DNA from: Hoeflea ulvae
GTDB lineage: Bacteria > Pseudomonadota > Alphaproteobacteria > Rhizobiales > Rhizobiaceae
Length of the DNA stretch: 64,000 nt
Assembly (NCBI RefSeq): GCF_026619435.1
Contig: NZ_JAOVZQ010000001.1
Span: 4,347,501 to 4,411,500, forward strand
Direction of reading: 5' to 3'
In this document: positions 1 through 11,655 of the stretch, piece after piece
Position numbering within the stretch: the first letter of the stretch is position 1
Layout of the letters: each line of letters starts with the position of its first letter
Made by a program: the position numbers and the translations under genes
Notes under the pieces: generated by a model
What the model saw: only the letters and a program-made list of their open reading frames with translations
Told to the model about the DNA's origin: nothing
The model's database searches: none

Positions 1-725
1 CGCTGCATGACAATCTCTACCCGTCGCGCATCGTGGTCGGCGCCCACACCCCGGAGGCGCATCAGTTTGCCCGGCTGTTGCAGGAGGCCGCAATCAAGCC
101 CGACATTCCGGTGCTGTTCACCGGCGCCGGCGAAGCCGAAGCAATCAAGCTCTTTGCCAACACCTATCTCGCCATGCGCGTGGCCTATTTCAACGAACTC
201 GATTCCTATGCCATCACCCATGGCATCGCCACCCGCGACATCATCGAAGGCATCAGCCTCGATCCGCGCATCGGCAAGCACTACAACAACCCCTCTTTCG
301 GCTATGGCGGCTATTGCCTGCCCAAGGACACAAGGCAATTGCTGGCCAATTTCAGCGAAACGCCGCAAAATCTCATCGGCGCCATTGTCGACGCCAATGC
401 GACGCGGATGGATTTCCTCGCCGCCGACATTCTTGCCCGCCAGCCCGGCGTCGTCGGCGTCTACCGGCTGGCGATGAAGCAGGGATCGGACAATTTTCGC
501 GAGTCCGCGATCCAGGGCATCATGAAACGCATCTGCGATCGCGGCATACCGCTCATCGTCTACGAACCGGATTGTCCCGACAGCGATTTTTTCGGATCCG
601 AAGTGGTCGCCGATCTTGCCGATTTCAAAAGCCGCGCCGACATCATCATCAGCAACCGGCGCTCGAGCGAGCTTGATGACGTGCCCGGCAAGGTCTATTC
701 GCGGGATATCTATGGTACAGACTAG
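1..725 (+). CDS. ugd: UDP-glucose 6-dehydrogenase, C-terminal part (5' end outside window)
   Basis: Oxidises UDP-glucose to UDP-glucuronate with two NAD+, feeding capsule, EPS or LPS sugars in the cytoplasm. The reading frame is open from base 3, so the N-terminal Rossmann domain lies upstream of the window. The visible part contains the dimerisation helix region, the catalytic cysteine motif [12 protein letters not shown] and the C-terminal UDP-binding domain (GIYRL-like [30 protein letters not shown]). The pattern resembles the short, E. coli-type Ugd of about 390 residues rather than the longer rhizobial RkpK type. A galE-type epimerase follows about 100 bases downstream on the same strand, which supports a nucleotide-sugar locus. 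The assignment to the family is firm; the exact physiological polymer is unknown. Confidence 0.93.
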
Positions 726-823
726 CCCGGCCGGATCATGAGACGCGGTATTCGTCCTGGCTCATGCGCCATGCCCCGGTCAGCGCGGGAAACACGATTC
801 CCCATCAACATCAGGATGGACAG

Positions 824-1849
824 ATGCCGGATACTATCTCTCATGATCCCACCCGCATCCTGGTAACCGGGGGCGCCGGCTATATCGGCTCCCATTGCTG
901 CGTCGAACTCATCAACGAGGGCTATCAACCGGTCATCCTGGATGATTTTTCCAATGCCCAGCCCGGCGTGGTTGACAGCATCGAGACGATCACCGGCAAG
1001 CGGCCACCGGTCATTGCCGCCGACATTCGCGACCGGGCCGCCATCGCAACCGCCCTTTCGGACCAACGGATCGGCGCGGTGATGCATTTCGCCGCCCTGA
1101 AGGCCGTCGGCGAGTCGGTGCGTCTTCCGCTGGCCTATTACGATGTGAATGTATCCGGCACGCTGGCGCTGCTCGGCGCGATGCAGCAGCATGGTCTCAA
1201 GACCATCGTGTTTTCGTCCTCGGCCACGGTCTACGGCATACCGGACTCCCTGCCCGTGCGCGAGGATGCCCCGCGAATGGCGACCAACCCCTATGGCCGC
1301 TCCAAGATCATCGCGGAGGATTTCCTCACCGACCTCTTTGCCGCCGAACCGGACTGGCAGATCGCCGTGCTGCGCTATTTCAACCCGGTTGGCGCCCATC
1401 AATCCGGCCTGATCGGCGAGGATCCGAGCGGAATACCCAACAATCTGATGCCTTTCGTGGCTCAGGTCGCATCGGGAAAGCAGCCTTGCCTGTCGATCTT
1501 CGGCGATGATTATCCAACGCGGGACGGCACAGGCGTCCGCGACTTCATCCATGTCGTCGATCTGGCGAAGGGCCATGTCGCCGCCATCAGGCATCTCGAG
1601 ACAGCCCCCGGGCTGATGACGCTCAATCTCGGCACCGGAACCGGCTATTCGGTCCTGGAACTGATCGAGGCCTTCATTGCAGCCAGCGGACGCGAGGTTC
1701 CCTACCGGATCGAGCCCCGCCGGCAGGGCGACGTCGCCGAGATCTATGCAGACCCTTCGCTTGCAGGCACGCGCATCGGCTGGCAAGCCACACGGACACT
1801 TGAGGACATGTGCCGCGACACATGGAACTGGCAATCCCGAAAGCCCTGA
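824..1849 (+). CDS. galE: UDP-glucose 4-epimerase (GalE family)
   Basis: Interconverts UDP-glucose and UDP-galactose (or a related UDP-sugar pair) by transient oxidation at C4. It is an extended short-chain dehydrogenase of 341 residues, close to the usual 338. The NAD motif VTGGAGYIGSH is near the N terminus, followed by FSSSATVYG, the catalytic Y-x3-K in NPYGRSK, and the GalE-typical RYFNPVGAH and GTGVRDFIHVVDLAKGH segments. The ATG at 824 was chosen because AGGATGGA lies just upstream; an in-frame ATG at 764 would add 20 unsupported residues. Neighbours are ugd upstream and an FkbM methyltransferase downstream, as in exopolysaccharide or glycan loci. Substrate preference cannot be read from sequence. 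Confidence 0.93.
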   Translation: MPDTISHDPTRILVTGGAGYIGSHCCVELINEGYQPVILDDFSNAQPGVVDSIETITGKRPPVIAADIRDRAAIATALSDQRIGAVMHFAALKAVGESVRLPLAYYDVNVSGTLALLGAMQQHGLKTIVFSSSATVYGIPDSLPVREDAPRMATNPYGRSKIIAEDFLTDLFAAEPDWQIAVLRYFNPVGAHQSGLIGEDPSGIPNNLMPFVAQVASGKQPCLSIFGDDYPTRDGTGVRDFIHVVDLAKGHVAAIRHLETAPGLMTLNLGTGTGYSVLELIEAFIAASGREVPYRIEPRRQGDVAEIYADPSLAGTRIGWQATRTLEDMCRDTWNWQSRKP

Positions 1850-1932
1850 CAGCGCGGGCGACGCAAGTGCTGGTGAGAGCATTGTGATACGGATCGGTCT
1901 TGCAGGGCTGCGGGAAGAGAGGAATGCAACGG

Positions 1933-2979
1933 ATGGACGTCAAAGAGATTGCGATGCCGCAAGCGGATCTGTTCGGTGATGATCTGCGTCTGATTTCAGA
2001 CCGGTGCGCGGACGAGAACCTGCCGGGGCTTCAGCGACTGCTGGAGGTCTACCTCCCCCATTCAGACGAGATCTCGCGCAGCCTCTACACCCGATTGCCC
2101 GTGGACGACCGGCCTGATTTCCTGGCTTTTCTCGCCAGGCGCTGGGCCGGCTTCGATCTTGTTCCAGACAGTCGGCTGAGAGCCTATGACGCTACGATTG
2201 CCGAAGCCCGCGCCCAACCGGCATCAGCCGTCACCGTCGCGGGACAGCGTTATCTGCGCCGGAATTTTGCGGCCCAGGGCGCCGACATCGATCTGATCGG
2301 ATATGAGGCAGCGCTCTGTGTTCATACCATTGGCCTCGATCAGTATCGCCACAGAGACTTCTCCGTTGCACCGGGTGACATCGTCATCGACGGCGGTGCC
2401 TTCATCGGCGATACCGCTGTCTATTTCCACCATGTGACCGGCCGCCAGTGCCAGATCCACAGTTTCGAATTGCTCTCGGAAAACGCCGCGCTGTTCGAGG
2501 CGAACAGGCAGTTGAACAGGATTTCTTCTGACGAGATGGTGCTCAACCGCCTCGCCCTGTCCGACCGCTCGGGTGAAACCATGCGGATTGCCAACACATC
2601 CGCACCTGCCGCAGCCCGCGCTTCGACCAACGATGCCGGCGAAGCAATCCAGACCATATCGATCGACGACTATGTCGAAAGCCGCAATCTTGACCGCGTC
2701 GACGTGATAAAGCTCGACCTGGAAGGCGGCGACGTTCCTGCCCTGGCTGGAGCACGCGCGACAATCCGCCGTTTCCGCCCGAAACTCGCGCTCTGCCTCT
2801 ACCACCGCTGGGACGACATCCTGGCGATCCCCGCCTTGATCCATGCCTCCGGCGTGGATTATCGCTTCGTGTTCAAATGGGTGCATCTGCGCGCAGGTTG
2901 GGAAGCGATCCTGATGTGTACACCGGTTTCGCCCGCAATCCCTTCGGCCGAGATCGACCAATCATCCCTGCGCGATTGA
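1933..2979 (+). CDS. FkbM family SAM-dependent methyltransferase
   Basis: Predicted O- or N-methyltransferase acting on a glycan or secondary metabolite, 348 residues. The FkbM core lies in the C-terminal two thirds: the SAM-binding motif VIDGGAFIGDTAVYF, then an acidic motif in HSFELLSEN, and the family signature VDVIKLDLEGGDVPALAGA near the end. The first ~130 residues are an extra helical region typical of sugar-locus FkbM proteins. The start at 1933 is favoured because AGAGAGGA ends nine bases before it; ATG codons at 1900 and 1924 are alternatives. It sits just after galE in the same direction, so a role in surface polysaccharide decoration is inferred. Confidence 0.85.
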   Translation: MDVKEIAMPQADLFGDDLRLISDRCADENLPGLQRLLEVYLPHSDEISRSLYTRLPVDDRPDFLAFLARRWAGFDLVPDSRLRAYDATIAEARAQPASAVTVAGQRYLRRNFAAQGADIDLIGYEAALCVHTIGLDQYRHRDFSVAPGDIVIDGGAFIGDTAVYFHHVTGRQCQIHSFELLSENAALFEANRQLNRISSDEMVLNRLALSDRSGETMRIANTSAPAAARASTNDAGEAIQTISIDDYVESRNLDRVDVIKLDLEGGDVPALAGARATIRRFRPKLALCLYHRWDDILAIPALIHASGVDYRFVFKWVHLRAGWEAILMCTPVSPAIPSAEIDQSSLRD

Positions 2980-3391
2980 CCGGGGCCGGACCGGTTTACC
3001 TTCCCGGCTCGATACAGGCGCCGCAGCCCCCGAACTCGGTGATGTCCTGCGCATCTTCGATCGCTTGTGCTTCGCAGATTTAACCCGGTCGCTAGGTCAT
3101 CGGAAGCGCGGAAAGTCGCTCCCCGGCAGCGGAAAACTTTGGCAAAATGGTCCGGCAACCGCGAGCCGCCATACCTCTCCCGTCCGCCGTCCGGCAGCCC
3201 GGATCGCCTTCCCCCAATACGACGTTCCGCAACACCCTCTCGCACCAGAGCTGCATGGCAAGTTCTTGCCGTCGCGGCCCGGGCACAGATCCGCACCAAG
3301 GGTTCAGCCCTGAGACTGTAATATTAAACCAGACTCATTAAGTCTAATTCACAATGTAAGCGTAGCGTAACAAGTAGCTTCGTAATTAATC
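2980..3391. other. Intergenic region, no gene seen
   Basis: About 400 bases between the FkbM gene and the small gene at 3475. The first 300 bases are G+C-rich with only short overlapping open frames and no ribosome binding site. From about 3320 the composition becomes AT-rich, leading into a likely promoter. No hairpin terminator or RNA gene was recognised. Confidence 0.5.
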
Positions 3392-3421
3392 TTGACAAAA
3401 ATTGTAACTGATACTTACTCT
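3392..3421 (+). promoter_or_regulatory. Probable sigma-70 type promoter of the RiPP-like operon
   Basis: A perfect -35 hexamer TTGACA (3392-3397) is followed after 18 bases by TACTCT (3416-3421), a moderate -10 match, in an AT-rich stretch unlike the surrounding DNA. It lies about 55 bases before the start of the precursor-like gene, and no other candidate promoter is obvious before the seven-gene run that follows. Confidence 0.45.
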
Positions 3422-3474
3422 GAATTGCGTCAAAGACAATGTTTGACACCGTACAATCAGAAGGAGTTGGGAAA

Positions 3475-3759
3475 ATGAAGAAACCGGACATCAGGGTCAT
3501 GGAAGGCAAAAAAATCGAAATGCGGTTGCCGGTAAAGGATGTCGTGCGGAAAATGTCGCCGGAGGTGCGCAAGCAGGTTCAGGTGGCCGCTGAAAAGCGC
3601 GGCATGGAAATCGAGCAATTCGTCCAGGAACAGCTGACGGCACAGCTTGTCGACCAGGACCTGTTCCTGATGACCGCGATTGATTGGGATATCCGCGCCG
3701 ACAGCAACCCGAGACGCGGCGATGTGCGTGTGGGCGGCGGCATTGGTGGCCGCTTCTGA
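3475..3759 (+). CDS. Small protein, candidate RiPP precursor peptide
   Basis: 94 residues, family not recognised. The start at 3475 is favoured by a strong AGAAGGAG eight bases upstream; an ATG at 3439 is less likely. Residues 1-60 are charged and probably helical (MRLPVKDVVRKMSPEVR, EQFVQEQLTAQL), as in a leader peptide. The last ~30 residues change character: one Trp, five Arg (in IRADSNPRRGDVRV and the final GRF) and a Gly-rich end GGGIGGRF with no Cys. That is a plausible core for C-methylation, hydroxylation or arginine modification. It is the first gene of the operon, 163 bases before a radical SAM enzyme whose family matures such peptides. Precursor identity is inferred from position, size and composition only; it could be another small protein. 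Confidence 0.55.
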   Translation: MKKPDIRVMEGKKIEMRLPVKDVVRKMSPEVRKQVQVAAEKRGMEIEQFVQEQLTAQLVDQDLFLMTAIDWDIRADSNPRRGDVRVGGGIGGRF

Positions 3760-3922
3760 CTGCCTTTCTTCGCAACCGCAATTTGGATGACCGTGGCCCT
3801 GTGCCGGAACCGGGACTGACCGATCAGTTCCTTCCGGTTCACCGCGGCATTCAGCCCGCGCGCCGATCTCCCGCAAGGCGGACCATGCCCGGGTAGTGGG
3901 CGTGGCGTGAAAAGGGGCGTCC

Positions 3923-5728
3923 ATGGATTTTGCAGATGCAGCACGCTTTTCGTCCTGTGAAGTGGCGCTGGTCGTGCCGCCATTCGCAGATGTGTTCCAG
4001 GCCAATCTGGCTTGCCATCTCCTCCAGGCCTGCGCCAAGGACGCCGGTTTCGATGTGAAGATCATCTATGGCAACATGCTGTTCGCCTCGATGGTCGGGC
4101 CAAGGGTCTATCGCGAGCTCATCACCGAACGCCTGGCGCTTGAGGCCGTTTTCCGGCGCGCCGCCTTCGGGGCTTTCGACACAGATCTCGACAGACGCCT
4201 TGCAAAGTCCGAGGCCTTTCAAAAGGCAGATGCATGTGTGTCCCCCTGGCTCGATGCGATCTCGGCGATCGTCGGGCAAATGGCGCCCCGGATTGTCGGG
4301 GCAAGCTGCTCCTTCGAGCAGATCACCTCGAGCATTGCCCTGCTTAAGCGGTGCAAGCATGACTTTCCCGATATCGTCACGCTCATCGGCGGTGCAAATT
4401 GCGAGGCGGACATGGCCGAAGGCCTGCTTTCAACCGGCGCCCGCATCGATCACGTCGCCTCGGGGGAGAGCGAGGACACCTTCATCACCCTGCTGCGGCA
4501 GATCCTGCGCGAGGGCACTGTCCCTGACCGCATCATCTACGGCAAGCCCTGCATGAAGATGAACGCGCTGCCGCTGCCTGACTATCATGCCTTCTTTGAT
4601 CAACACGCGCTGTTCCTCGCGGGCAAGGACGGCGCCATCCAGGAGCCTGCCCTGCCCCACGAAAGCAGCCGCGGCTGCTGGTGGGGCGAAAAGCACCATT
4701 GCACATTCTGCGGGCTGAACGGCGGAGGCATGGCATTCCGGGAGAAATCCGCCGACAGGATCGTTAGCGAGATCGAGACATTGTTCGAGTGTTATCCGAT
4801 CAAACAGCTCAACATGACCGACAACATCATGCCGCACCGGTATTTCCAGACGGTGCTGCCGCGGCTGGCCTCAAGCCTGCCGCCTGACGTGACGATCTTT
4901 TATGAGCAGAAGGCCAATATCAGCCTGGACAAGGCCCTGCTGCTGCGCGACGCGCATATTACCGAAATCCAACCCGGCATCGAATCCCTGAACACCGACC
5001 TGTTGACCCGCATGAACAAGGGCACCACTGCCGCGTTGAACCTGCGGCTGCTGCGGCTGGCGCGGATCCTCAAGATCGACGTGTCGTGGAATCTTCTGGT
5101 CGGCTTTCCCGGTGACAGGGCGGAAAGCTACACCGAGATGTTGCAGCTCATGCGCAAGATTCCGCACCTACAGCCGCCCAGTGACTTTGCCTTTCTCCGT
5201 CTCGACCGCTTCAGCCCGTATCACGAAAACCCGGCGCATTTCGGGATCGAGAACCTGCGCCCGCAGGAGATCTACCGGCAGCTTTTCCCGCCGCAGACCG
5301 ATATCGACAAACTCGCATATTATTTTTCCGGCGATTACCAGTCCGGCGCTTTCGAGTGTCCCGACACAATCGAACAGATCAAGGCGGAGGCGAAGACCTG
5401 GCACGACCGGTGGCAGAAACGGGGGAAGCCGGCCTTGTCCCTGGCCCATCTTGCCGATGATCTCTACGCCCTGGTCGACACCCGGTTCGAGGGCCGCGGC
5501 ACCCCTCTGGAGATCATTTCGACGCAGACGGCGCAGGCCGTGATGAACCCGGCGGACAGGATGAGCGCGTCTACGCGCGATTGGCTGTTGCAACGCGACA
5601 TCGTGGCCGAGCTGGATGGCGCTCTGGTGCCCCTGGCCACCGCTCCTGTTGCACTGTTGCAGCGGTTCTCACGACCGGCGGAAAACCAGACACATGCCGA
5701 TCTTGATGCACAGCTTCCCGCGGAATGA
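3923..5728 (+). CDS. B12-binding radical SAM enzyme, RiPP maturation radical SAM protein 1 type
   Basis: 601 residues. The N-terminal ~190 residues look like a cobalamin-binding fold (ALVVPPFADVFQANLA; IVGASCSFEQI; LIGGANCEADMAEGL). The radical SAM domain carries the iron-sulfur motif RGCWWGEKHHCTFCGLNG, with Cys at about 252, 260 and 263 (C-x7-C-x2-C) instead of the usual C-x3-C-x2-C. This wording is characteristic, as I recall it, of the family TIGR03975, which includes cobalamin-dependent C-methyltransferases of RiPP pathways. Later segments fit the barrel (FYEQKANISLDKALLL, IQPGIESLNTDLLTRMNKG, WNLLVGFPGD). AGGGG lies six bases before the ATG. It follows the precursor-like gene and precedes two oxygenases, so it is probably the first tailoring enzyme. 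C-methylation is inferred from the family. Confidence 0.88.
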   Translation: MDFADAARFSSCEVALVVPPFADVFQANLACHLLQACAKDAGFDVKIIYGNMLFASMVGPRVYRELITERLALEAVFRRAAFGAFDTDLDRRLAKSEAFQKADACVSPWLDAISAIVGQMAPRIVGASCSFEQITSSIALLKRCKHDFPDIVTLIGGANCEADMAEGLLSTGARIDHVASGESEDTFITLLRQILREGTVPDRIIYGKPCMKMNALPLPDYHAFFDQHALFLAGKDGAIQEPALPHESSRGCWWGEKHHCTFCGLNGGGMAFREKSADRIVSEIETLFECYPIKQLNMTDNIMPHRYFQTVLPRLASSLPPDVTIFYEQKANISLDKALLLRDAHITEIQPGIESLNTDLLTRMNKGTTAALNLRLLRLARILKIDVSWNLLVGFPGDRAESYTEMLQLMRKIPHLQPPSDFAFLRLDRFSPYHENPAHFGIENLRPQEIYRQLFPPQTDIDKLAYYFSGDYQSGAFECPDTIEQIKAEAKTWHDRWQKRGKPALSLAHLADDLYALVDTRFEGRGTPLEIISTQTAQAVMNPADRMSASTRDWLLQRDIVAELDGALVPLATAPVALLQRFSRPAENQTHADLDAQLPAE

Positions 5729-5761
5729 TCCCGCCATGGACCGGAAAGGAGAATGCGCGCC

Positions 5762-6649
5762 ATGCAGATTCAGACAGTTCCCATAGAGACACTGTTGTTG
5801 CCCGGTGAATTCGACGCCTATGTCCGCCCCGGCGGGCAGCCGGTGATTGCGCGCGGCTGGATGCATGGCTGGCCCGCGATGGACAAATGGGACTTCTCGT
5901 TCTTTCGCGATGTCTATGGCGACGATCCCGTCAAGCTTGCCGCGGATTCAATGAGCAACGAGGCAGCCTTCGTGACCACCATGGCGGCCTATATCGGCTA
6001 CATCCTGTCGGATGCCACCGGATCGGAACTATCCGCAAAACACGCGGAGATCGGTGCAATACGGCCGTTTTACTGCACCTCCTACAAGCCCTTCGCCCAC
6101 CATCCCGAGCTCGGAGATGATTTCGCGCTCCCGCCCTTTGCGCTCGACTGGTGGCCATGGATCAACCCGGCGTTCCAGGACGCGCATTTCCCCAACACCC
6201 AGGGATGGTTGCTGATCAGCCCAAAGGGGGCCGCATCGCGGATGCATATCGATTCCCACCACACTATCACCTGGCTCGCGCAGGTGCGCGGGCGCAAGAC
6301 CGCCTATCTGTTTTCGCCGCAAGATTCCGAGGCAGTCTACAAGGGGGCAGTCGACCCGGCCGCGCCGGACTATGCGCGTTTTCCGAAATTTCGGGACGCG
6401 ACCTGCCACAAATGCACATTGGACCCGGGCGACATGCTCTTTCTGCCGCCGGATTGGTGGCACCATGTCGTCACCGAGGAAAACTCGATCACGGTCAGCC
6501 AGAACCTCGTCAACCACACCAATTTCGGGCTCTATATCCGCCGCGCCTATGGCGCGCAATTGCCCGCATTCCTTGCCAGCCTGCCGCCCGACGGGGCAAT
6601 GCGGTCCGGAGCAGAAGAGGTGTTGCGGGAGGAAATGAGCGATGTCTAG
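5762..6649 (+). CDS. JmjC/cupin_8-like Fe(II)/2-oxoglutarate oxygenase
   Basis: 295 residues, predicted cytoplasmic protein or peptide hydroxylase of the cupin_8 (FIH/JMJD5-like) group. The double-stranded beta-helix iron ligands are visible: H-x-D in SRMHIDSHHTITW (His about 162, Asp about 164) and a distal His in PPDWWHHV (about 234). The segment PFYCTSYKPF and the Lys in GRKTAYLFSP may contact 2-oxoglutarate. The ATG at 5762 is chosen because AAAGGAG lies ten bases upstream; the ATG at 5753 is too close to it. The gene overlaps the next one by eight bases, so the two oxygenases are probably translated together. Acting on the RiPP candidate, for example by hydroxylating a side chain, is inferred from operon context. 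Confidence 0.83.
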   Translation: MQIQTVPIETLLLPGEFDAYVRPGGQPVIARGWMHGWPAMDKWDFSFFRDVYGDDPVKLAADSMSNEAAFVTTMAAYIGYILSDATGSELSAKHAEIGAIRPFYCTSYKPFAHHPELGDDFALPPFALDWWPWINPAFQDAHFPNTQGWLLISPKGAASRMHIDSHHTITWLAQVRGRKTAYLFSPQDSEAVYKGAVDPAAPDYARFPKFRDATCHKCTLDPGDMLFLPPDWWHHVVTEENSITVSQNLVNHTNFGLYIRRAYGAQLPAFLASLPPDGAMRSGAEEVLREEMSDV

Positions 6650-7902
6650 CCGCCCGACAGACCCTGCAGTTGCGGCGCAATGGTCGCTGGAAAAGCTGAT
6701 TGCCCCCGTGTCGGCCGAGGACTTTTTCTCGACCTATCTGGAGCGCGATTTTCTGCATGCCACGCCGCGAACCGGCCGCTCGCTCGCAACACTGTTCCAG
6801 CTCGGCGATCTCGAGAAACTCATTAGCCAGATGCAGGATCCGGACGCCGTCAGGACGACGGGAGGGCGCGGCGGGAACAAGGACGGCCCAAATCCCTCGG
6901 CACGCGGAGGTACGCGGATGGGCAGTCTCTATGCCGACTATTCGCGTGGAAAGACCATTGTCGTCAACGGCATCCACCAGAGCTGGGAACCGGTCCGCGA
7001 CCTGTGCGCCGCACTGACCTCCGATCTGGCGATGGCGCTTCAATGCAATCTCTATGTCACGCCTGCCCATGCACAGGGTCTTGATTGCCATTGGGACGGG
7101 CATGACGTGCTGATCCTGCAGGTGGACGGGTCCAAGGACTGGACACTCTACCCGATGATCGACACCCTGTCGGCGCCCGATGATGAGGGAAAGAGTGTCA
7201 GCCCCACCGCAGCGCCGCTCATGCAGCTGACGCTGCGCGCCGGAGATGTGCTCTACATGCCGCGCGGAATGCCCCATGTCGCCCGGGCGACGGACGAAAC
7301 ATCCGCGCATCTGACGATCGGCCTGATCGGGGTGACATGGCGCGACCTGATGCAGGCCGCCGTGCATGTCGCAGCCGAGACCCGACAGGACATGCGCCGG
7401 GTATTGCCCCCGGACTGGCTGTCAAAGGGCATTGCCGGGCCGTCCCTGCCAATGGCCTACAGGCAAGCCATCGCGGTGCTGGCGGATGAGGATGTGCTGC
7501 GCCGCGCCCTGGACCTGGTGGCGGCAAAGGTCATTTCCCAGTGCGCCCGTCCGGTCCAGCAGTCAGTTTCTGTCGCTCGATCTTGCGGATGCGATCACCC
7601 TCGACACCCGGGTGACGCGGCCATCGGCAAATCTGGCCCGCTGCGTGACCGGCGACGAGGGCGTCACCCTGCATTTTCCGGGCGGACAGATCACCAGTTC
7701 GGACAAGGCCCTGTGGGCGTTCGGTTTCTGTGCCGAAACGCCTGAGTTCCGTGTCCGCGACATTCCCGGATGGTACAGCGACGACGAACGCCTGACACTG
7801 GCGAAACAGCTGATACGGGCCGGCATGTATGCCATTTCGCACCTGCCCGAGCCTGCCACCTCAACCGACGCGCCGGCGCAGCCCGTGGCCGGCACAGGAT
7901 GA
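6642..7902 (+). CDS. Cupin_4 (ROXA/YcfD-type) Fe(II)/2-oxoglutarate oxygenase, frameshifted
   Basis: A second hydroxylase, of the ribosomal-oxygenase group (YcfD hydroxylates an arginine of L16). The first ~306 codons hold the catalytic core: H-x-D in LDCHWDGHDVLILQ (His about 150, Asp about 152), W-x-LYP, and the distal His in LYMPRGMPHVARA (about 212). The reading frame then shifts: around 7560 one base appears inserted, after which SQFLSLDLADAITLDTRV continues in the next frame to the stop at 7902. Both halves together give about 420 residues, a normal length with the C-terminal winged-helix-like domain. The gene overlaps its upstream neighbour by eight bases. The shift may be a sequence error or true inactivation; a truncated protein would keep the iron site. 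Confidence 0.8.
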
Positions 7903-7938
7903 GTGCCCCGCGCCATGCGACGCCTCGGGAGCAGGCCG

Positions 7939-9351
7939 ATGGATGACACCCACGCACTCGACGACCAGCGCTACCGGCTCAACCCGCGCCTCAGGCTGAC
8001 GCAATATGGGGGCGCGTTCTATGCCCATGATGCAGCCCTTGCCCAGGAACCGATGGTGCATATCGCGACCCAGAGGATAGCGGAAGCAGACTTCGCCACG
8101 CTTCGCGCGCTCAAGGGGCAAGGCCTGTTCATCGAGCCCGAGACAATGTCGTCCCTCAAGGCCGCGGTTTTGGCACTCGACGCCGATGCGGCAGCGCTTG
8201 ACCGCTGGATCAAGGCGCGGTTTCTCCTCAGCCACACCTCCCCGGCGCAACAGGTCGAGGCGCGCCTGCTGCAAAGACTGTCGGATGACTTTGCGGCCAT
8301 GCCGCAGCGCAGGGAATTTTCCGACCTTGAAACCAATCAGAGATTTTTCGCGCCGAATACATTCTTCAACCTGCCGCGCGATGTCGATCCGTCGCGGGCC
8401 CATGTCGGCATGATCGGGCTGCCCTTCGCCTCCCTGCCGGTCAGCGCGGGCACCCAGACCGCGCCCGAAGCCTTGCGGCTGCAATCGCGTGCCGTCTCCT
8501 GGCTCGATCTGCACAAAAACGGCGCCTATTCGGACATCGTCCTGTCCGGCGGCCGGCCCGGCGTGATCGGCCGGGGCATTGTCGTGCAGGACTGCGGGGA
8601 TCTGCAAAGCCCGGACGGCACCCCTTGCGGGATGCTGGGCGCCCTTGAAATGCTTCTGGACCGCCTGGCTGACGACACCATTCGCCCGCTTTTTGTCGGC
8701 GGTGACCACGCCGTGACCTATCCGGTCATCAAGGCCATGCTCGCACGCGAGCCGCGCCTTGGCCTGCTGCATTTCGATGCGCATAATGACCTGTTTTATC
8801 AGGATGCGATCAGCTACAACCACGCGGCCTTCCTGTCCAACCTGATCCGCGACACCGACATCGAAACCGTGGTCTCGCTTGGCCTGCGCACAGCGCTCGA
8901 CCAGCGCACGCAGGTGATGGACCGGGCCTATGCAAGCCATGGTGTTGGCGCTCGCGTCACATTGCTTCCGCTGATGCGGCTCAAGCAATTGCTGGCCTCC
9001 CCGGCCGCGCTGTCCGAGGCGATCGCCGCACTTGCGGGCCGTCCCTACTACATCACGCTTGATCTCGACGTCATGTCCGAAACCGCAATTGCAGGCCAGG
9101 TGTCAACGCCCTGCGGGGCCGGACTTGAATGGCACGAACTTCACACGCTGCTCCAGGCGATGTTTGCGCATCTGGATATTTGCGGCGCGGATGTGGTCGA
9201 ATTCAATCCCGGCAACGGAAAAGCCGGAGGCGCGGCGCGTGCGGTCAACGCCATGCTGGTGCACCTGATCGACGGGCTCGCCAGATCGGACGGCAAGCCA
9301 CCTGCGCCGGCACGGGACGAGCAAGACGATGCCCCATCAGACCGGCCTTGA
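7939..9351 (+). CDS. Arginase/agmatinase superfamily enzyme, candidate peptide arginase
   Basis: 470 residues, longer than free-standing arginases (about 300). The ureohydrolase fold occupies roughly residues 150-455, and all six manganese ligands are present: His 257 in VGGDHAVTYPV; Asp 280, His 282 and Asp 284 in HFDAHNDLF; Asp 375 and Asp 377 in ITLDLDVMS. A conserved His in SYNHAAFLSN and the acidic VVEFNPGNGK loop also fit. The first ~130 residues are an extra domain (YRLNPRLRLTQYGGAFYAHD) that could bind a leader peptide. The start at 7939 has GGAG seven bases upstream; GTG 7903 and ATG 7915 are alternatives. Arginases acting on RiPP cores make ornithine in landornamide-type pathways; the Arg-rich C terminus of the gene at 3475 is a fitting substrate. 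That role is inference. Confidence 0.85.
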   Translation: MDDTHALDDQRYRLNPRLRLTQYGGAFYAHDAALAQEPMVHIATQRIAEADFATLRALKGQGLFIEPETMSSLKAAVLALDADAAALDRWIKARFLLSHTSPAQQVEARLLQRLSDDFAAMPQRREFSDLETNQRFFAPNTFFNLPRDVDPSRAHVGMIGLPFASLPVSAGTQTAPEALRLQSRAVSWLDLHKNGAYSDIVLSGGRPGVIGRGIVVQDCGDLQSPDGTPCGMLGALEMLLDRLADDTIRPLFVGGDHAVTYPVIKAMLAREPRLGLLHFDAHNDLFYQDAISYNHAAFLSNLIRDTDIETVVSLGLRTALDQRTQVMDRAYASHGVGARVTLLPLMRLKQLLASPAALSEAIAALAGRPYYITLDLDVMSETAIAGQVSTPCGAGLEWHELHTLLQAMFAHLDICGADVVEFNPGNGKAGGAARAVNAMLVHLIDGLARSDGKPPAPARDEQDDAPSDRP

Positions 9352-10463
9352 TCCCGCTGCGGCCCGGGGCGGATTCCTCGGCGAAACCGGAGAACTGCAT
9401 CTCGCCTGCGCACCTTTCCTCAGACGCGAGAAGACGCCGCAGGGATATCTGGTGCAGGCGCCGATCCTGCAGGAGACGGTCGCACTGGATGCGGAGGACT
9501 GGGCCTTTCTCGATCACTTTCGCGGTCTTGAGACGGCCGGCGACGTTGCCGCTCTGCTGCTGTCGGAGGCTCAAAGCGCCGGAAAGTACCAAAGCCAGAT
9601 GGAGATCTATCTCGGCGTGGAGCGGTTTCGCGCGATGGGGCTGCTGGTTGAAACCCGGTTGATGCCGGTGGCGGAACTTGCCACGCTCCTGCGTCCTGAT
9701 CCCGGCATGCAGCCGGCATACGGCACGCCCGAAGACCCGGTGGCCATCACAAGGCGCATGGACGGGCGCTGGATCCTGGTGCAGGGCGACAGCGCCGTTC
9801 GCGCCGCCTTGCGCAGGCAGGTCCCGCTGCGCGCCAGCATTCTGAGCCATCCAGCGGCGCTGGCCCGGCTTGCCAGCCTGCCGGACGAATTCTTCGGCAC
9901 GGCGCGCGGCGGGATCCCCTATCAGAGCATCTTTCACGAAGATGTGGAGATCGTGCGCGGGCGCAGGCCGGATCTGCACGAGCGCTTTGCCAAGATCGAC
10001 CCTGCCGATCTGGTGGGCAAACGAGATCCTCGATCTCGGATGCAACATCGGCATGAACAGTTTCCAGGCGGCGCATCTTGGTGCCCGCGCCGTCCTGGGG
10101 CTGGACCTCGCCGCCTTTGCGGCGGCGGGACGGCGGCTCAATCTGTTTTTCGATGCGCCCTGCCGCTTCGAGGCGCAGGATCTCAACCTTGCCCCGGCAT
10201 CCGTCGAGCCCTTTGACACCATTTTCCTTTTTGCGGTCCTGGGCCATCTGCAGACCCTGGACGGGATCGTGTCGACCATCAGGCGAAGCCGTGCAGGATC
10301 CGTCTATGTCGAGACCCATTGCGACCGCCAGGACCAGGGGCAGACAGAGGCGTTCCTGAACCTTGCTTTGTTTGAAACGGTCACGCCCCTGGGCCTGAGC
10401 TTCGACAATATCGTGCGCAAGACCCGGTCGAGACAGGTCTACAAATGCCGTATCCGCCCGTGA
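9329..10463 (+). CDS. Class I SAM-dependent methyltransferase with N-terminal extra domain, frameshifted
   Basis: The N-terminal ~230 residues (to about 10018) resemble the start of the preceding protein in layout: a beta-rich segment (FLRREKTPQGYLVQAP, ETVALDAEDWAFLDHF) that may be a peptide-recognition domain, then a helical linker. After one apparently inserted base near 10020 the next frame continues with the SAM-binding motif ILDLGCNIGMNSFQAAHLG, the acidic VLGLDLAAF and DTIFLFAVLGHLQ, ending at 10463. The complete product would be about 377 residues. It begins inside the end of the arginase gene (23-base overlap) and its end overlaps the nucleotidyltransferase start by 19 bases, so the operon is tightly coupled. 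Whether the break is real or a sequence error is undecided. Likely target is the modified peptide. Confidence 0.75.
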
Positions 10464-11266
10464 TCCTGTGGCCCGACGCCGACGGCTTTGTCCAGCCCAT
10501 GGCCAGTCTGGCAGCCATTCAGCCTGCCTGGCGCGCACCGCTCGACGAGATTGCGGCAACCTGCCGAAGCGCCTGCGGAAACAGCTTTCACAGCCTCTAT
10601 ATCCGGGGAAGCGTTGCCCTGGGACAGGCCCGAGACCGGCTGTCGGACATTGATGCCATCCTGCTGTCGGAAGGAAACATGGACACCCTCGACAAGCCCT
10701 GGCGTGACCGCCTCGGCGATCGGATCTCTAGATCATGGCCCTTTGTGCAGGAGGTCGAATTGCTGCCGGCGTCGGTTTCAAGCCTGCGCCAGTCGGACAA
10801 GCTGTGCGCGCTGTTGAAGACCCAGTCGGTCTGTTATGCGGGGGCGGATGTGACGGCGCACTTGCAGCCGCGGCGACTCGGCCTTGACCTGGTGTTCGAA
10901 GGCTGGAGCCTGCCCAACGACATAGCGCTGGCCCGCAAGCTGCAGACGACGCCGAAGGCGGGCAAGGCCAGGTCCTGGATGGCCAGGAAAATCCTGCGCA
11001 GCAGCTTCGAACTGGTGATGTGCGAGGCGGGTTGCTACACACGCGACCTTTCCGCCTGCCGCGCCTGTTTCCTGCGCGTCCACCCGGACCAGGCGCCCAT
11101 GCTGAACGCCGCCTTCGACCTGGCACTCGGCCGGATTTCAGAGCAACCCGTCTTTGCCGCCCTCGCCGATTTCGGCACCGGCTGGCTCTACCCGGAAATC
11201 TGCCGGACCTACGGCGCCGACCTCATCACCCGCAATGCAAGCTCTGCTGTCACTGGCGCCCCGTGA
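10445..11266 (+). CDS. Nucleotidyltransferase-fold protein
   Basis: 273 residues. The signature of Pol-beta-like nucleotidyltransferases is visible at residues 50-75: YIRGSVALGQARDRLSDIDA, that is G-S-x3-G...D-x-D with metal-binding aspartates, as in antibiotic nucleotidyltransferases (ANT/KNT). The remainder is helical and contains several Cys (CEAGCYTRDLSACRACF). It overlaps the methyltransferase end by 19 bases and is the last gene of the operon. Possible roles are nucleotidylation of the finished peptide, of a self-immunity target, or of a host factor; none is established for RiPP operons known to me. The DNA-level fold call is secure, the function is not. Confidence 0.72.
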   Translation: MPYPPVILWPDADGFVQPMASLAAIQPAWRAPLDEIAATCRSACGNSFHSLYIRGSVALGQARDRLSDIDAILLSEGNMDTLDKPWRDRLGDRISRSWPFVQEVELLPASVSSLRQSDKLCALLKTQSVCYAGADVTAHLQPRRLGLDLVFEGWSLPNDIALARKLQTTPKAGKARSWMARKILRSSFELVMCEAGCYTRDLSACRACFLRVHPDQAPMLNAAFDLALGRISEQPVFAALADFGTGWLYPEICRTYGADLITRNASSAVTGAP

Positions 11267-11278
11267 CCCCATCTACCA

Positions 11279-11655
11279 TCAACACCGCCGTTCTTGCGCG
11301 GTGTGCGAGATCCAGAATTCATGCGCCGAACCGCTGTTGGCGTTGACGCCCTGATCGCTTCCCCGATCCGCGAGACGCTGCGCATGTCCACGCGGCTTCC
11401 GTCACCTTGCGGCGTCACCACCAGCACAACATCATCGGCAAGATAGAAGACCAAGGTGCGCACGGTTGCCTCAAGCCGGTGACGCTCCGCATCCGCGGCG
11501 ACGATTTCCCAGCCCATGTCCTGTGCGACCGCCAGTGCGCGTTGACACGCTGCATCCGCGGGCAGTTCCGTCTCCAGCGGCGCGATGTCGGGATAGGTGG
11601 CTTTCTGCGCTATGGAAATCAAAGGATTGATTGATTTGCTGGCTGAAGTCGCCAA
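11279..11655 (-). pseudogene. Decayed DUF1499 gene
   Basis: Frame-disrupted remnant of a DUF1499 domain protein, normally an envelope-associated protein of unknown role. Recognisable parts are YPDIAPLETELPADAA, MGWEIVAADAERHRLEATVR, DDVVLVVTPQGDGSRVDMR and SVSRIG. The frame then breaks near 11340 in a G run; the continuation SDQGVNAN, typical of the family, is in another frame and runs to a stop at 11279. A further shift near the start is possible, because an alternative frame reads INQSFDFHSA just before YPDIAP, and the usual N-terminal membrane segment is absent. It lies 35 bases beyond the 3' end of tRNA-Met and converges with the RiPP-like operon. Confidence 0.6.

Follow-up and report, generated by a model that had tools for sequence, protein, structure and literature searches.

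A candidate peptide-modification operon of Hoeflea ulvae encoding a radical S-adenosylmethionine enzyme, two JmjC oxygenases and an arginase-fold protein

Introduction

The described systems closest in enzyme content to the operon reported here are the biphenomycin pathways (pbs, bpm and bip), in which, according to two 2025 reports (PMC12257519, PMC12707348), a B12 radical S-adenosylmethionine (SAM) enzyme, an arginase and an ornithine hydroxylase of the JmjC/cupin kind occur together with an MNIO in one cluster for a ribosomally synthesised and post-translationally modified peptide (RiPP), forming ornithine and then hydroxyornithine. Our operon lies at positions 3475-11266 of a 64,000-nucleotide stretch of the Hoeflea ulvae genome (contig NZ_JAOVZQ010000001.1; hereafter the window) and encodes the same three enzyme kinds, so the statement of an earlier, sequence-only reading of this DNA that no pathway joins them has been overtaken. 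The biphenomycin pathways are reported to have an MNIO with its partner, a PF12640/UPF0489 arginase, FHAFRF precursors, a TldD protease and a cross-linking radical SAM enzyme, whereas the Hoeflea operon has a PF00491 arginase, two JmjC proteins, a methyltransferase, a nucleotidyltransferase-like protein and a different precursor. Neither MNIO, TldD nor PF12640 was found among the seven operon and five flanking proteins scanned, and the precursor-like peptide contains no FHAFRF.

Peptide arginases proposed to convert arginine to ornithine in a precursor are described in a further report (PMC12703449) from two Pfam families: OspR, FlmR and OhkR belong to PF12640, the OspR type carrying an EEH(N/H)EAF motif, and KgrD of the enteropeptin pathway, which acts on a thiomorpholine intermediate, belongs to PF00491. 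The same reaction is proposed below for the operon's arginase-fold protein P0005, whose likeness to KgrD is one of Pfam family and not of direct sequence comparison. RiPP recognition element (RRE) domains fused to JmjC (PF08007) proteins, with bacterial homologues in RiPP-like contexts, are described in another report (PMC12710340). Proteusin, pheganomycin-type, Nif11/epimerase and YcaO clusters share with the operon the radical SAM family TIGR03975. JMJD5, NO66, MINA and YcfD are ribosomal oxygenases acting on ribosomal or nuclear proteins; by sequence, P0003 and P0004 have the JmjC folds and metal-ligand motifs of these enzymes, but their genes stand inside a RiPP-type operon. Each enzyme kind is known from other peptide pathways, while the exact gene set was not found in the genomes searched, nor did a search of CC-licensed PMC papers bring up a description of it.

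Results

Seven open reading frames (ORFs) follow one another on the plus strand. By their coordinates, three junctions leave 163, 24 and 36 bp between genes, if the arginase starts at the ATG at 7939, and three are overlaps of 8, 23 and 19 bp. The features are:

3475..3759, plus strand: P0001, precursor-like peptide of 94 aa with the tail NPRRGDVRVGGGIGGRF; earliest possible ATG at 3439
3923..5728, plus strand: P0002, B12-binding-type radical SAM protein of TIGR03975 (530.8 bits, PF04055, CX7CX2C)
5753..6649, plus strand: P0003, Cupin_8/JmjC 2-oxoglutarate oxygenase, JMJD5-like (Pfam, nearest solved structure, HxD...H)
6642..7902, plus strand: P0004, JmjC_2 (cupin_4) oxygenase, NO66/MINA-like, frameshifted near 7,550 (ORFs 6642-7745 and 7366-7902)
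7939..9351, plus strand: P0005, arginase-fold PF00491 protein with an N-terminal extension of about 150 residues whose fold was not recognised; alternative GTG start at 7903
9329..10463, plus strand: P0006 (with P0009), N-terminally extended SAM methyltransferase, with a frameshift near 10,010 (ORFs 9329-10216 and 9870-10463)
10445..11266, plus strand: P0007, nucleotidyltransferase-like protein (GSX10SDID motif, annotation of plasmid relatives)
11691..11767, minus strand: tRNA-Met, outside the operon, at the border of the region shared with congeners

The operon is real, and its gene content and order, the motifs, the radical SAM family and the position of the precursor-like ORF are observed directly. 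The genes lie at about the coordinates first read; that the methyltransferase gene and the second JmjC gene are frameshifted had passed unremarked. A scan for promoters and terminators returned fewer sites than in shuffled sequences.

P0002 scores 530.8 bits on TIGR03975, the RiPP maturation radical SAM C-methyltransferase profile (curated cutoff 281.85), matches PF04055 at 8.1e-12 and carries CX7CX2C at aa 252-263, bearing out the earlier description of a RiPP-maturation radical SAM enzyme. The B12-binding model PF02310 matches at E 1.1e-5 but below its cutoff (25.7 bits against 32.1), and no solved structure matched. P0002 is the sole TIGR03975 gene of its genome. C-methylation by P0002 is nevertheless not certain, as the B12 radical SAM enzyme of biphenomycin is reported to cross-link instead (PMC12257519, PMC12707348).

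In one scan of genome contigs, P0002 had 524 relatives, and the 79 best loci were retained (31-45% identity in the family); with seven plasmid loci (from 56 matching plasmid records) and five from the same taxonomic family (5 of 246 other genomes) this made 91 loci. In a quick IQ-TREE run of 89 rows from 90 relatives, rooted at the midpoint only, P0002 groups with 14 others to one side of a branch (support 100, length 0.81). Two relatives with an ORF of at most 450 aa or no match were omitted (L039 being one), the same-family loci L015-L018 were replaced by longer copies, and L019 was dropped. Within the P0002 group, seven of the 14 other rows (L023, L024, L029, L030, L031, L033 and L036, L029 and L030 being near copies) have a small ORF 12-215 bp upstream of the start of the radical SAM match whose tail alternates as V-x-V-x-V-[KRE]-F; L039, left out of the tree for its shortness, has one too. 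The pattern, composed after some tails had already been inspected, was run over the 91 loci and matches 11 of their 8,617 ORFs 40-160 aa long: eight are the upstream ORFs of these seven rows and L039, and three (L034, L063, L066) are not directly upstream of the radical SAM gene. No such upstream ORF was found for L021, L022, L025, L026, L027 or L028. NHLP-clan models matched seven of the eight relatives' upstream ORFs tested, weakly and below cutoff; P0001 shows no such match.

P0001 is a plausible precursor, as first proposed, judging from its position and its weak similarity to the ORF before the closest radical SAM relative. Its ATG at 3475 is preceded by GAAGGAG, and among 9,510 small ORFs its best match is the ORF directly upstream of that relative in L020 (Plesiocystis), 12 of 41 residues being identical (3e-6) when the two are compared as a single pair; the L020 ORF had been chosen by eye before the small-ORF search. 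P0001 ends in RF, and [KRE]F endings occur in 75 of 15,829 ORFs across all loci. Plasmids gave no match to P0001.

Two observations on the radical SAM loci stand apart. The radical SAM proteins of L034 and L035, from metagenome-assembled genomes labelled Spirochaeta and Myxococcota, are near copies of each other and have the same neighbours, which suggests transfer or mis-binning. A Paracoccus denitrificans plasmid (L007:8571-14035) carries a Cys-rich, Gly-tailed small ORF, a TIGR03975-like radical SAM gene and proteins that resemble, by eye, ThiF, YcaO and SagB, the locus being unannotated in the collection.

Both oxygenases exceed their Pfam cutoffs, P0003 on PF13621 (Cupin_8, 108 bits) and P0004 on PF08007 (JmjC_2, 87.6 bits, 6.2e-25), and both retain HxD...H, in line with the first assignment. 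The proposed kinship with YcfD gives way to others: the nearest solved protein to P0003 is JMJD5 (7.3e-20), and P0004 is closer to NO66 (8.3e-19) and MINA (9.7e-16) than to YcfD (1.4e-4). A P0004-like cupin is encoded near Nif11, LanM and NHLP-exporter genes in a Pseudanabaena plasmid cluster (L126).

P0005 matches PF00491 at 7.3e-37 (127.8-129 bits, cutoff 22), with the motifs GGDH, DAHND and DLD, which we take to supply the six usual metal ligands, so that the arginase fold first read stands. It scores best on agmatinase models yet below their cutoffs (104.5 against 302; TIGR01230, 95.6 against 174.3), lower still on arginase TIGR01229 (40.6 bits against 227.6), and far below the 236-301 bits of the three other PF00491 genes in the genome. 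The comparison with landornamide-type arginases does not hold, since those belong to PF12640 and P0005 is an agmatinase-like PF00491 protein; PF12640 was not reported for P0005, and GGDH stands where OspR-type arginases have EEH. On plasmids, 246 records contain P0005 homologues, none covering 80% of the query. Apart from these, another N-terminally extended PF00491 arginase, of 420 aa, is encoded at L109:9298-10560 (minus strand, contig C5 of genome G1198). Its neighbours are ABC/HlyD-like genes, an acyltransferase-like protein extended at its C-terminus and an M50-like peptidase; this may be another peptide arginase cluster, and it was not found in 195 other genomes of its family.

The last two genes were assigned earlier to a methyltransferase and a nucleotidyltransferase, which stands for the first through P0009, the second frame of the gene, ending at 10463, whose Rossmann part matches Methyltransf_12 and other Pfam models. 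P0007 carries GSX10SDID, but no Pfam or NCBIfam model matches it, nor any solved structure at E 5; its relatives occur in 13 plasmid records, and all ten of those listed are annotated nucleotidyltransferase. P0006 has no plasmid match. A P0007-like gene lies in a Pantoea adenylation-domain cluster of non-ribosomal peptide synthetase type (plasmid locus L125), which, with the P0004 relative near LanM, Nif11 and NHLP genes, fits natural-product roles. The contexts of the other relatives inspected (Dolichospermum, Streptomyces anulatus, Rhizobium tropici, S. clavuligerus, Pantoea piersonii) were uninformative or nearly so.

As assembled, the P0004 gene keeps its catalytic part intact in 6642-7745 and continues, after a frameshift near 7,550, with its C-terminal part in another frame ending at 7902. 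The G+C-richest codon phase shifts at about 7,440-7,600, and the Pseudanabaena homologue (L126) aligns first to P0004 residues 18-300 and then to residues 68-159 of P0008, the other frame (33.7% over 95 aa, 2e-11); a Dolichospermum homologue (L127) aligns to P0004 with no match to P0008. The methyltransferase gene is frameshifted near 10,010, with a phase shift at about 9,930-10,080; the measure is noisy, given that the first 250 bases of this gene lack the expected phase. MnmA, the sole other gene compared, is intact.

In five of 17 congeners the DNA rightward from the tRNA-Met is 79-93% identical, and in the 15-16.5 kb on its other side BLASTN finds no match to window positions 1-11610, nor any to the 40 kb that precede the window; the operon thus lies in a variable region, which ends at the tRNA in all five congeners examined. 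Left of the operon are polysaccharide-type genes, the adjoining ones of UDP-sugar dehydrogenase, GalE-like and FkbM type. P0002 is absent from the three congeners searched for it (the other 14 were not), and three queries found no match in viral contigs. P0005 is matched in 12 of the 17 congeners at 1e-15, always partially (from query residue 160 or later) and at 28-36% identity; these are, judging by sequence, ordinary family members. An integrative element at the tRNA-Met edge was considered and is rejected for now, with no nearby integrase (the nearest being about 0.66 Mb away on the contig) and the tRNA-end 30-mer occurring once in the window.

Discussion

On balance, we consider it somewhat probable that this is a horizontally variable RiPP operon whose products modify the tail of P0001. 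A RiPP is indicated by the family of the radical SAM protein, by the small ORF that precedes its gene and by how its relatives behave, and the coupled gene spacing, the JmjC and arginase ligand motifs, the Arg-rich tail and the biphenomycin and KgrD precedents count in the same direction. An arginine-bearing tail, an arginase that scores below the cutoffs of the free-arginine models and two JmjC proteins of the protein-hydroxylase kind make modification of peptide arginine or ornithine the simplest reading. In the scheme that follows we infer every substrate, residue and reaction, and the order of steps. A 94-aa precursor would be made, its leader resembling, by eye, a ribbon-helix-helix; the B12 radical SAM protein would modify the C-terminal tail, with C-methylation the likeliest reaction; the PF00491 arginase would convert one or more tail arginines to ornithine; the two JmjC proteins may hydroxylate tail side chains, most probably those of arginine or ornithine; and the methyltransferase and nucleotidyltransferase-like protein would either complete the product or serve in host protection. 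We put forward more tentatively the possibility that the operon defines a RiPP type of its own, with a ribbon-helix-helix-like leader, a distinct B12 radical SAM group, an agmatinase-type PF00491 peptide arginase with two JmjC proteins of the ribosomal-oxygenase kind placing (hydroxy)ornithine in a C-methylated tail, and a nucleotidyltransferase for modification or self-protection.

Several results weigh against assigning the operon to an active RiPP pathway of this kind. P0001 matches no Pfam or NCBIfam family above cutoff and none of the NHLP/Nif11 precursor families, its match to the L020 ORF (E 0.045) is beneath the HMMER inclusion threshold, the two tails are unlike, and the tail pattern matches none of 430 window ORFs, so that P0001 fails it in strict form. 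RRE domains, suspected by eye in the N-termini of P0005 and P0006, drew no Pfam match, and hhalign pairs of single sequences gave probabilities of at most 1.3%; nor was a dedicated protease or exporter seen among the 12 proteins scanned, the rest of the genome not being searched. Conserved synteny, whose absence had been named in advance as evidence against the proposal, was not found: the P0003-P0007 set occurs near none of the 91 loci at thresholds of E 1e-4 (tblastn) or 0.01 (phmmer), many of the contigs being short and their flanks incomplete. Just two loci hold one generic partner-like gene each, both on the other strand, an ordinary arginase-family gene about 8 kb off in L026 and a Cupin_8 gene in L043. 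The seven plasmid loci contain no P0003-P0007 homologue (queries read against 13 loci), nor do four of the five same-family loci reread with longer flanks, the fifth not being reread. Across overlapping samples, P0005 orthologues number none in 296 further genomes of the order (E 1e-30), none in 384 of the class (1e-25) and one in 397 of the phylum (1e-22; G1198, 32% over residues 227-437), and neither P0007 (1e-12) nor P0004 (1e-30) is found in 212 other genomes of the family. Finally, with two genes frameshifted as assembled, the pathway may not be fully active in this strain.

Those frameshifts, both in one operon that congeners lack and that is placed in a variable region, would also suit a RiPP operon in decay, formerly functional and now partly or wholly inactive. 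We regard decay as rather unlikely: the five other ORFs are intact, the catalytic part of the second JmjC protein survives, assembly errors could account equally well for two single frameshifts, and MnmA is intact. Biphenomycin-like chemistry, in which the radical SAM protein would cross-link and the arginase and JmjC proteins make hydroxyornithine, draws on the three enzyme kinds held in common with pbs, bpm and bip; it seems improbable given a precursor without FHAFRF, the lack of MNIO, TldD and PF12640 in the scanned proteins and a radical SAM score in a family named for C-methylation.

We give as little credence to an operon unrelated to RiPPs, in which P0001 is a CopG-like regulator, P0005 an agmatinase, and the target of the enzymes a cellular protein or small molecule. 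P0001 does match CopG_antitoxin, but at E 0.084 and 14.1 bits against a cutoff of 28, below a chance match to CBP4; JMJD5 and NO66 relatives hydroxylate proteins; and the arginase prefers agmatinase models. Against this stand the TIGR03975 score, the precursor tails of the radical SAM relatives and agmatinase scores that fall below cutoff where the genome's other PF00491 genes score much higher. Assignment to primary metabolism, the other outcome named beforehand as damaging, is thus not seen for the radical SAM protein, and for the arginase extends to the best-scoring models but not past their cutoffs.

If P0001 is indeed the substrate, the operon sets two JmjC oxygenases beside a putative peptide substrate encoded next to them. 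Should P0005 act on a peptide, it would join KgrD as the second PF00491 enzyme to form ornithine in RiPPs, and would bring a putative recognition domain. The radical SAM group with V-x-V-x-V-[KRE]-F-tailed precursors offers a concrete, minable substrate hypothesis.
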